Source: Sphingobacteriales bacterium (lineage in GTDB: Bacteria > Bacteroidota > Bacteroidia > Chitinophagales > CAIOSU01). From it: DNA of 64,000 nucleotides. The stretch covers positions 124,001-188,000 of the forward strand of contig JAIXOI010000035.1 in NCBI GenBank assembly GCA_027486795.1, read 5' to 3'. This document shows positions 35,505-39,722 of the stretch, in pieces. Position 1 is the first letter of the stretch. Each line of letters opens with the position of its first letter. The translations under genes and the position numbers were made by a program. The notes under the pieces were generated by a model. That model searched no databases, had not been told where the DNA came from, and saw only the letters and a program-made list of their open reading frames with translations.

Positions 35505-37454
35505 TTACTTGATTATTGGCTCAAGCACCAAAGCCACTTTGTTAAAATCGGATGCAGCATTAATTACAGAGCGGAAGCCTTCGTAAAGCTCTTTCTTCAA
35601 TTCGGGCACTACGTAGTATTCGTGTACGTTTATGTGAACCACATTGCCTTCAATTTTATAGCTTGAGATAAAACTTGCCAATGTTTCACCATTACTCTCT
35701 AATTTCTTTTCAATTTTCACATCCTCCAAACCGCTTACCATATATCCAGCCGGAATGGTAAAGTAAATATGATGTAAATACTGTTTTGGATATGGAAAAG
35801 CAATGTCTGTTTGGCGCTCATGCTCTTGGTAAAGCTCTGCTTGTGGGCCAATGATATCACCAACATTCAATATATAGCTATTACCTGCATTTTCTAACAA
35901 CGCGCCCGAAGCAAACTCACCTGAAAGTTCCAAAGGCTTATCGGTTGCATTGTCGTTTAAAAGGACATTGACGTTTGATTTCGACTTGATAATCGCATCA
36001 TCAAGACCGGATGCCAACAACTCACGGATAAAAGCCTCTTTGTTCTCCTCGTCGGCATAGGCAAAATTGTAACGGTAAATATATGCGGTATGCCCCGTCC
36101 ACGATTGTTTTTTCTTTACCGTTACGTACTCCATGTTCTTGTCAAACAATATCTCGGCATCTAAACCAATCGTATTGTCTTTGTATCCCATTGTTGGTAT
36201 ATCGCGCACTTGGCCAAAACCATAGGGCACAGTTATAAACAATCCTTTGTTGCCGGCAAGGTAGCTTGGTGGCACCCCTAAACGTAAATTTATGTTTGCT
36301 GGAGAAATGAATTTCTTCAATTCTGGCAAATAAAACATATACTCATCAAGATTATAATAGTCCTCAAACTCGGCAACAAACTTATTGTCGTATCGGCTAC
36401 AAGTTTGCACTAATTGATGTCGGATGCCTAATTCATTTAGCACCATTGCGTATACCCTTGTTAGACCTACCTCGTTTCCATACAAGCGAGAAACCACTTG
36501 CGCTGGATCGCCTAACCCGTCTCCCGACTCAAGCTTAACCGCAACGTTTGTTTTTAGATAATTCTCCAACGCGAGTATTTTCTCTTGGTCGGTTTTATAC
36601 TTGGTAAGTTTCAGCTCCTTAATAAATTTGGCTGGATTAAAATCAGTTTCGGAGGCGTATATACTTGTCAAAAAATGCATAGAGGCATCGTTCCAAGTGT
36701 TAAGCCTACCTTCAACACCTTTTCTTCCTGTAAGTTTATACGAAATTCGTTGCATACTAGCTTCATATCCGCTATAAGCCTCTTCATATAGCGGTTCCAT
36801 ATCGGTAACCGTTATGTTTAGTATATAGCGTTCACCATCTTTAACAAACTCACCATCGGGGAAACCATTGTAACCATAGGTACCAAACTTCAAGTCTTCA
36901 GTAACAATCAAGGTAAAAGTTGCCTTCTTTATTTTTACATCTGTTTGGTATGTTTCCCTGCCAAAAATCTCTGCTGAGCGTTTAATGGTGTATACATACT
37001 CTATTTCGCCCCCCTTTTCAACACCTTCTATGGCAAAAAGCGCAAAATTGCCGTAGTCTTCATAATTGTCCAGGTTTTTAATGCTCTTTTCGTTTAGTAC
37101 TTTCACTGTACCGTCTTTTGCAATTGACCTGGCTTTCAGCATAATAACCTCATCATCCTCGCGAATTGGAACAAATACCTTGTTATACTCATCAATGCCT
37201 TTATCGTTGTTTACCCTTATGCGTTTATGGCGGGTAATGTACATTGCATAATCATCGGCCTCCTCACCTTTCACGTACTCCATCATTCTGGTATCAACCA
37301 GTATAATTGCATTGTCGGCCAACTCCTTGTCGGTTAACTGGGCTAAGTTAATGGCGGTGTCCCAATCATAATGGGTATAGCTGCTATCAGGGTTTGCAGC
37401 CGCTAAGCTCACTGCCAAAGTGGAAGCAAACAAAAAAATAAGGGTACGTATCAT
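35505..37454 (-). CDS. DUF3857/transglutaminase-like protein with the catalytic triad missing
   Basis: 649 residues with a signal peptide (MIRTLIFLFASTLAVSLAAA). An N-terminal DUF3857 beta domain is followed at about 280-400 by a transglutaminase-like core and by a C-terminal beta domain. At the position of the usual GDCKD (intact in the next gene) it reads YGNEVGLTRVYAM, with Glu328 for Cys. The His-Asp pair is also absent (LDEYMFYLPELKKFISPAN). So it is probably a non-catalytic paralogue: a binding or scaffolding protein in the periplasm or on the surface. It lies 10 bases downstream of the active-looking paralogue and is co-transcribed. Substrate unknown. Confidence 0.82.
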   Translation of the reverse strand: MIRTLIFLFASTLAVSLAAANPDSSYTHYDWDTAINLAQLTDKELADNAIILVDTRMMEYVKGEEADDYAMYITRHKRIRVNNDKGIDEYNKVFVPIREDDEVIMLKARSIAKDGTVKVLNEKSIKNLDNYEDYGNFALFAIEGVEKGGEIEYVYTIKRSAEIFGRETYQTDVKIKKATFTLIVTEDLKFGTYGYNGFPDGEFVKDGERYILNITVTDMEPLYEEAYSGYEASMQRISYKLTGRKGVEGRLNTWNDASMHFLTSIYASETDFNPAKFIKELKLTKYKTDQEKILALENYLKTNVAVKLESGDGLGDPAQVVSRLYGNEVGLTRVYAMVLNELGIRHQLVQTCSRYDNKFVAEFEDYYNLDEYMFYLPELKKFISPANINLRLGVPPSYLAGNKGLFITVPYGFGQVRDIPTMGYKDNTIGLDAEILFDKNMEYVTVKKKQSWTGHTAYIYRYNFAYADEENKEAFIRELLASGLDDAIIKSKSNVNVLLNDNATDKPLELSGEFASGALLENAGNSYILNVGDIIGPQAELYQEHERQTDIAFPYPKQYLHHIYFTIPAGYMVSGLEDVKIEKKLESNGETLASFISSYKIEGNVVHINVHEYYVVPELKKELYEGFRSVINAASDFNKVALVLEPIIK

Positions 37455-37464
37455 TTACTGCCTT

Positions 37465-39384
37465 TTAGGGTTTTTTGGTAAGCACTAGGGTTTCTTTGTA
37501 GGCTTTATTCAGTTGATTTAGAAACTCATTCCATTGGTCAAATTGGGTTGGTTTAAGCATCAAAGTGTTTATGTAAACCCTTTTAACTTGCTTCACTTCG
37601 TTACCGGTTTGGGTGTAGGTTATCTTAAACCCAAAATTGTCATTTTTGTATTCCACCGAGCTTGGAATGTACTCAACCAGATAGCCTTCGGGTATCACAA
37701 TGGTCGTAAGCAAATTGTTGTCAAGCTTATAATCAAACTCGAAACTGTAAGTGCGCTTTGCCTTATCAATAGGCTGGGTATTCAGCATTTTATCCATATT
37801 GACTCCAATATAGTACTTACCTGCAACCGACTTTACATAATCGGGTATAGTGCACTCATAATCAATAACTAATGGAGTAGTCGAATTCAACGGATCGTTC
37901 AAGGTGAATTTATCCGTTTTAAATTTATTGTTGCCTTTAGTAATTAGGGCAGTAACAAACATTTGGTCATCAGCTTTATCTTTACTGTAATAGCCATAGG
38001 CTGCATCTACTTTTGGGTAGCCCGTCCAGCTAGCTCTTCCGGTTCCCTTCAAATCTGTGTCATTAATTACCAAACGTACTGAATCAATCACCCTGTTCGT
38101 CTCTAAGGCAATAATAGGCACTTGTTTTATTACGTAGGTATTAGCATCTATACCAATCAGTGCCTCCTTACCTTGAATCATATCTGTTGGTAAATCAATA
38201 GTTTGATACTTTCCAGTGGCATCCAAAAAAAGTGTATCTCCATCTAAAAACAAGGCAGTTATCATGTGATTATCTACCATTGGCGTAGGCACCATTTTAT
38301 AGGTGTATGGTTTACTGCGTGTGCCAATCCAAGTCATTCGAGCATTCAAACCTCCTAAATTTAGCATCTGGGTAAGCAGGTTAGCCATATCCTTGCAATC
38401 ACCATACTTTTTAGTACATACATCAATGGCGTTGCGGGGAACAAAACCTCCCATGCCATCTTCAAATGCAACATAATTGATGTTGTTTTGCACCCACTTA
38501 AATATAGCTTCCGCTTTTTCGCGTTGGGTATTTTTTCCTTTAACAATATCGTCCACTATCGTCTTTAGCTCTTCGTCCCCTTTTGGATTTATCGACTTTA
38601 CTAACGAATAGTACCAAGCATATAAATCGTCAGGGTTGCGCAGCACTGGCTGCTCTGAACCCCCTAAACTGACAGTGGTAATATGCAGTATAATATGAGG
38701 GTCGAAATAGCTGCGACTTGGTGCATTACCTTCAAACTTCAACTTTGGCAGGTTTTCAGCAGTCCAAGTATAAATTATACTCCCGTCTGTTTGCTTGGTC
38801 TCTTTAAATTTTATTTTTTCAGTATTATCACCTAATAATACAAAAGCAACCTTAACATCAGCTGGAAAGCTTACACTATATTCTGCTCTCAAAACCGGTA
38901 CATAAAAATTGAAGAAGAAAGGACTGAGCATACGAGGGTCTTTGATATGCTCAGTATAATCCATTTGAGTGGTAGCGCCTGACATTACGCTTGGAAAAAT
39001 AAATTCCATTTTTTTACTGTCATCAAAAAATACACCATCGGAGGTAGCTGACTTTTCTTGAAAATCAGTTACTTCCACTTTTTTGCTTTTTTTTCCGTTT
39101 GGCACCTCGGTGAACGCTTTTAAATCCTCAATTTCCGAAAAACTAGTGTAATAAATGCGCTCGCGAGACATACTTAAATCATTCGAGGTAAGATAGTGGG
39201 CACGTTCCCTTACTTTGTTTTTTATCTGCAATGAATCGCCTTCGATCGTAATATCCAAATGTTGCGACATTTCTAAATATACTACATCCTCTTTCGGGAA
39301 GCGCTCCAGTAGCTGAGCATTTACTTGCCCGAAAACCGAAATTGAAAAAAAACAAAAAAAGAATAGCCCCCAAAATTTAGCCAT
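37465..39384 (-). CDS. DUF3857/transglutaminase-like protein, active-site residues present
   Basis: 639 residues from the ATG at 39384, with a signal peptide (MAKFWGLFFFCFFSISVFGQ). DUF3857 occupies about residues 50-230 and the transglutaminase-like core 265-400. The nucleophile Cys330 is in KYGDCKDMANLL, His in DNHMITALFL and Asp in LFLDATGK. A C-terminal beta domain follows. The family cleaves or cross-links peptide substrates outside the cytoplasm; its natural role is unknown. It lies just upstream of the inactive-looking paralogue, and the pair may form a complex. Confidence 0.85.
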   Translation of the reverse strand: MAKFWGLFFFCFFSISVFGQVNAQLLERFPKEDVVYLEMSQHLDITIEGDSLQIKNKVRERAHYLTSNDLSMSRERIYYTSFSEIEDLKAFTEVPNGKKSKKVEVTDFQEKSATSDGVFFDDSKKMEFIFPSVMSGATTQMDYTEHIKDPRMLSPFFFNFYVPVLRAEYSVSFPADVKVAFVLLGDNTEKIKFKETKQTDGSIIYTWTAENLPKLKFEGNAPSRSYFDPHIILHITTVSLGGSEQPVLRNPDDLYAWYYSLVKSINPKGDEELKTIVDDIVKGKNTQREKAEAIFKWVQNNINYVAFEDGMGGFVPRNAIDVCTKKYGDCKDMANLLTQMLNLGGLNARMTWIGTRSKPYTYKMVPTPMVDNHMITALFLDGDTLFLDATGKYQTIDLPTDMIQGKEALIGIDANTYVIKQVPIIALETNRVIDSVRLVINDTDLKGTGRASWTGYPKVDAAYGYYSKDKADDQMFVTALITKGNNKFKTDKFTLNDPLNSTTPLVIDYECTIPDYVKSVAGKYYIGVNMDKMLNTQPIDKAKRTYSFEFDYKLDNNLLTTIVIPEGYLVEYIPSSVEYKNDNFGFKITYTQTGNEVKQVKRVYINTLMLKPTQFDQWNEFLNQLNKAYKETLVLTKKP

Positions 39385-39722
39385 ATTACTGCAATATTCC
39401 ATTTTTATCCCTTAAATGATTGTATGGTGAACATACTGCCGAAAATCTACATAAACAAGCAAACAGTATGTTGTAACATTAAAATGCCCATTATTCAACG
39501 GCAAAAAAGATAGGATAGTGCGCTTAAAAAGCAAATTTATCAATCCTTAACTATTGCGGCTGTGTCTAGCTCATAAGGCGTTGTTAGTCCTTTGTTTAAA
39601 AATTTACTTTACAGTGTTATGAAATAACCCCAGCATTCTAGTATTTTTGGGCGCTTTAACGGAAATAACACCAACAAACACTTAAATAAAAAATCAAACT
39701 TCCTTTACAAACTAACAATTTT
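39385..39722. other. Non-coding gap between divergent DUF3857 and hppA genes
   Basis: 338 bp with no supportable gene. It must hold promoters for both neighbours. On the plus strand TATTTTTG at 39642-39649 matches the -7 consensus, about 73 bases before hppA, but no TTG sits at the right distance. Near 39590 a TTTGTTTA run gives no full match. The gap is AT-rich and shows no repeat or riboswitch fold I recognise. Confidence 0.5.

Follow-up and report, generated by a model that had tools for sequence, protein, structure and literature searches.

Enzyme/pseudoenzyme pairs are well known in folds other than the one considered here. In mitochondrial processing peptidase (MPP) and the prokaryotic M16B pairs, an active beta subunit is accompanied by an inactive alpha subunit, which is encoded together with it in a two-gene operon in bacteria and is needed despite being dead (PMC11266112). 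Inactive proteins also occur in the transglutaminase fold: human EPB42 and FBXO21 have a transglutaminase-like domain without activity (PMC10318531), but they are not encoded in an operon with an active homologue. For the DUF3857 family, bacterial members of which have the transglutaminase fold, one paper in the open-access literature searched mentions the name, and that in passing; no active/dead pair in the family was found described there, and no assigned function was found for it.

Here, we describe two adjacent genes, A and B, in a window of 64,000 nucleotides (the whole stretch of DNA that was analyzed, positions 124,001 to 188,000 of contig JAIXOI010000035.1 from a Sphingobacteriales bacterium). 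Like the subunits of MPP and M16B, they encode a live homologue (B) and a dead one (A, as predicted from its sequence) of equal length. The two cases differ in that MPP and M16B have an unrelated metallopeptidase fold and form a proven complex, whereas the pairing of A with B is known from the genes; A/B would be analogous in kind to MPP beta/alpha. Like EPB42 and FBXO21, A has a transglutaminase-like domain that is apparently inactive. Such a pairing of live and dead homologues is provisionally regarded as new for bacterial DUF3857 proteins of the transglutaminase fold.

A tandem pair of DUF3857 genes

The genes, the interval between them and the codons at the catalytic positions are as follows (genes from the open reading frames, Pfam and structure models; the interval from the open reading frame coordinates; codons from the alignments).

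37465-39402, minus strand: gene B, 645 aa, with DUF3857, transglutaminase-core and DUF3858-like domains; predicted to be exported, catalytic triad intact
37455-37464, minus strand: gap of 10 nt between B and A
35505-37454, minus strand: gene A, 649 aa, with DUF3857, transglutaminase-core and C-terminal domains; predicted to be exported and catalytically dead
38395-38397, minus strand: codon of Cys336 of B, the predicted nucleophile
38266-38268, minus strand: codon of His379 of B
38221-38223, minus strand: codon of Asp394 of B
36471-36473, minus strand: codon of Glu328 of A, aligned with Cys336 of B; start of model helix 328-342
36339-36344, minus strand: codons of Glu371-Tyr372 of A, aligned with His379 of B
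36303-36305, minus strand: codon of Ser384 of A, aligned with Asp394 of B

B is the upstream gene of the pair and A the downstream one, and the 10-nt gap indicates that they are co-transcribed. Because the flanking genes on both sides run on the opposite strand, B-A is a two-gene unit. A and B are the sole DUF3857 proteins of the source genome (about 3.9 Mb). Each has an N-terminal hydrophobic segment and no strongly hydrophobic stretch elsewhere, which suggests that both are exported.

The DUF3857 domain (PF12969) is recognized in A (51.8 bits, E 1.3e-13) as well as in B (61.5 bits, E 1.4e-16), both above the curated cut-off of 24.6. Transglut_core (PF01841; cut-off 23) is recognized in B (41.3 bits, E 2.1e-10), and its score in A, 19 bits, is under the cut-off. 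Neither protein matches any NCBIfam model, and a PDB search with the single A sequence gave no match. BLASTP finds little similarity between A and B (E 5e-4 at 20% identity; 16-20% identity across comparisons). Profile-profile alignment is unambiguous, running end to end over 610 columns (P 100%, E 8.5e-51), and it is this homology to B, together with the fold of 3kd4 described below, that assigns A to the transglutaminase-core fold.

The predicted structures of A (pLDDT 89.6) and B (pLDDT 91.0) have an identical three-part architecture, and each matches over its full length 3kd4, a DUF3857/DUF3858 protein (BDI_1141) of Parabacteroides distasonis deposited as a "putative protease," the architecture of which is that of A (Z 20.3, 472 aligned, rmsd 4.0 for A; Z 26.3, 486 aligned, rmsd 3.9 for B). 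In 3kd4, YGTPLE is aligned to YGDCKD of B, so that the nucleophile Cys is apparently missing; the only solved full-length relative thus seems to be one without it. The catalytic domain of B also resembles those of peptide:N-glycanase (PNGase; 1x3w, Z 11.7, 154 aligned, rmsd 3.4) and LapG (4fgo, Z 11.0, 135 aligned, rmsd 3.7), both of which differ from B in their accessory domains. Few transglutaminases are among the VIA-align matches listed for A, where failure to appear is uninformative. In both models, the N-terminal DUF3857 domain is similar in structure to ribophorin I/Ost1 of the oligosaccharyltransferase and to the first domain of M1 aminopeptidases (for A against 8agb_E: Z 11.7, 172 aligned, rmsd 4.0).

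The profile-profile alignment sets YGNE of A against YGDC of B. A Cys-His-Asp/Glu triad is present in B (Cys336, His379, and Asp394), and the corresponding positions of A are occupied by Glu328, Glu371 or Tyr372 (the alignments being one column apart at the His position) and Ser384. The first residue of the catalytic helix is Cys336 in the model of B and Glu328 in that of A. The only Cys of A in the window, C352, is 24 residues away from the site and poorly conserved, with a Cys at that position in 8 of the 38 A-class proteins; of the 46 members of the class, 4 have no Cys at all. The original prediction had placed at 35505-37454, exactly as found here, a paralogue of B without any of the three catalytic residues, and the full-length alignment agrees with it, no replacement Cys being present. 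It was also right about Glu328. The nucleophile of B, which it numbered Cys330, is Cys336 by our count; the former number would fit a count from Met7.

Active and dead classes among relatives

Relatives were gathered from the genus, the order and the phylum, and the DNA around them was read. The DUF3857 family is present in about 40% of the sampled Bacteroidota genomes (99 of 247). A single alignment of 222 Bacteroidota relatives contained 112 members of active classes (B, B', and C2) and 110 of dead classes (A, A', and D2), where classes were assigned by the best-matching whole-sequence profile and not by the Cys, the seeds of C2 and D2 having been chosen with the motif in view. All 112 active-class proteins have both the Cys and the His, with Asp (73) or Glu (39) at the third position. 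None of the 110 dead-class proteins has Cys at the catalytic site, the GDCK motif is absent from them, and just four scattered Cys residues lie within six residues of the site. Another Cys in the active site or a conserved one near it, either of which would have spoken against the original prediction, is therefore missing from the relatives as well as from A. In the A class, Glu is the commonest residue at the site (23 of 46), and Asp, Lys, Asn, Gly, and others are also found; the His has been lost too. Thus, on the question of whether Glu-for-Cys is conserved as a class, the loss of Cys holds throughout and the Glu in half of the A-class proteins: the class trait is loss of the nucleophile rather than substitution by Glu.

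Ser is found at the catalytic site in 24 dead-class members. D2 is the less securely dead class, Ser being frequent at its site, and at least seven D2 proteins have Ser-His-Asp, keeping the His and Asp; these might have some weak activity or have lost it only recently. PDB searches with one D2 and one C2 sequence gave no match.

The other classes also form active/dead tandems, B'/A' (in the order B' then A', the latter being about 730 aa) and C2/D2, in which one or two D2 genes may either precede or follow C2. At two loci (L149:2238-8598 and L154:458-6667), B' is followed by two consecutive A'-class dead paralogues, and two dead paralogues likewise accompany C2 in L169, L170, L176, L204, L207, and L212. 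Singleton active DUF3857 proteins also occur, so the active form does not always depend on a dead partner. In L157-L163, single genes encode DUF3857-transglutaminase proteins of about 1250 aa with an intact LGDCKD or IGDCKD motif. The possibility that these are A-B fusions of the Rosetta-stone type was considered and rejected: L159 carries TPR repeats within its N-terminal half and one active transglutaminase domain, and in L160 one DUF3857-transglutaminase unit and no second copy was found.

In some lineages a third gene is present. At 20 of the 39 A/B loci with upstream sequence, the nearest gene upstream of B, in the same orientation and often overlapping the start of B, encodes a protein with TPR and MORN_2 repeats; this protein is about 1090 aa long and is predicted from a signal-like N-terminus to be exported. 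Two examples are:

L139:6878-9877, minus strand: TPR-MORN protein
L217:2899-6156, minus strand: TPR-MORN protein, full length

The genome of the window has no full-length equivalent, giving local MORN_2 matches only, and the genus lacks the protein. As half of the A/B loci are without this gene, there is no support for a fixed complex of three proteins; the TPR-MORN protein is optional and may serve as a scaffold in some lineages.

Co-inheritance, selection and origin

In the order sample, A (counted at E below 1e-30) and canonical B (full-length matches scoring over 600 bits, one gene broken across two contigs being counted as well) were found in an identical set of 40 of the 149 genomes, where the 600-bit threshold, which divides canonical B from B' with its own partner A', was set after the gap in scores was visible. 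In the phylum sample, they were found in an identical set of 11 of the 247 genomes. Hypergeometric values for such co-occurrence ignore the relatedness of the genomes, and two other observations count for more than these chance values. First, several families divide into genomes that carry A together with B and genomes that lack the two, and none has a member with one alone. Second, A and B co-occur though unlinked in at least five genomes (G016, G098, G125, G128, and G327): in G128 and G327 both genes lie inside long contigs, and in G016, G098, and G125 there is no B on the upstream side of A.

Where the genes are linked, the order is B then A in 44 clusters. The gap between active and dead genes in relatives has a median of 5 nt and is 50 nt or less in 73 of 93 cases; the genes overlap in 29 of 93, an upper bound, since gene starts were taken as the longest possible. 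With these 44 clusters and the identical genome sets, A and B are encoded together and co-inherited in the manner of an enzyme/pseudoenzyme pair.

A is under purifying selection, its dN/dS against two close relatives being 0.083-0.084 (0.15-0.16 for B), and pseudogene decay is rejected on this ground. The two proteins are conserved in different parts. The transglutaminase core is the best conserved domain of B, with a mean information of 2.70 bits against about 2.0 elsewhere. In A it is the least conserved domain (2.06 bits), and the maximum among the stretches measured in the A class lies in the C-terminal helix:

35517-35621, minus strand: C-terminal segment of A, residues 612-646, 3.01 bits, candidate interaction surface

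In A, conservation has shifted away from the transglutaminase core and towards the C-terminal domain, as expected if A was freed from the demands of catalysis and acquired, or retained, those of binding. The name pseudoenzyme given to A by the original prediction is well supported by the class-wide loss of Cys and His, the intact predicted fold and the purifying selection.

In a tree of 90 sequences, dead and active proteins are split by one weak branch (37%). With the caveat of long branches, the AU test does not reject a tree in which all dead proteins form one clade (p 0.62). It does reject a clade of A, A', B, and B' (p 0.007), the grouping to be expected had the dead copies been derived from their own partners. 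The catalytic loss in A would be old, and A does not seem to be derived from its own partner B.

The role of the dead copy

What, then, does A do? It is very probably a needed partner of B and not a relic. We consider it likely that A and B form a cell-envelope enzyme/pseudoenzyme module, in which A is a dedicated non-catalytic partner binding B or the substrate of B via its C-terminal domain. B would be a transglutaminase-fold hydrolase or transferase that relies on Cys-His-Asp, functioning as an exported cysteine enzyme in the envelope, where the N-terminal export signals would place both proteins. A, which has apparently kept the three-domain architecture and lost the catalytic site, would be its dedicated non-catalytic subunit; by binding B, or a substrate to be presented to B, most likely through the conserved C-terminal domain, it may stabilize, position or restrain the enzyme. 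The earlier suggestion that A may regulate or scaffold B is supported indirectly, by co-occurrence even without linkage, by gene order and by tight coupling.

Co-occurrence is also compatible with two proteins that act in the same pathway without contact. A might have been neofunctionalized, working with an activity or ligand of its own in the pathway of B rather than as its subunit. We think this unlikely: A does have conserved charged or polar residues of its own (N91, R109, E152, E297, K301, R354, and R391), but no sampled genome has A without canonical B or the reverse, and no consistent nucleophile is left in the former pocket. Far less probable is that A is still catalytic through other residues, be it a different nucleophile or a Cys that has shifted position. 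The superfamily does include non-canonical triads (PMC4866520, PMC10318531), and Ser at the site of many dead-class members, accompanied by His and Asp in several D2 proteins, could be read in the same way; in the A class itself, however, the variable site offers no constant nucleophile, the His is gone and some proteins are Cys-free. That A is a decaying duplication relic retained solely through translational coupling to B is hardly credible, despite its low identity to B, because its dN/dS is 0.08, its frame is open and full-length in dozens of species, it is kept even where unlinked from B, and the clade expected of dead copies derived from their own partners is rejected.

The reading of A as a non-catalytic partner of B may extend to the family. 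We suggest tentatively, as a possibility somewhat short of a favored view, that the exported DUF3857 transglutaminases of Bacteroidota largely function as obligate heteromers, each with a single live subunit and either one or two dead ones; the live/dead split might have been a single ancient event, after which the pairs (A/B, A'/B', and D2/C2) co-diversified, in some lineages around an exported TPR-MORN scaffold. The pairing of A with B offers a handle on function, as loss of either gene would be expected to give the same phenotype. It is also a warning that not every DUF3857 protein of the transglutaminase fold should be annotated as a transglutaminase.
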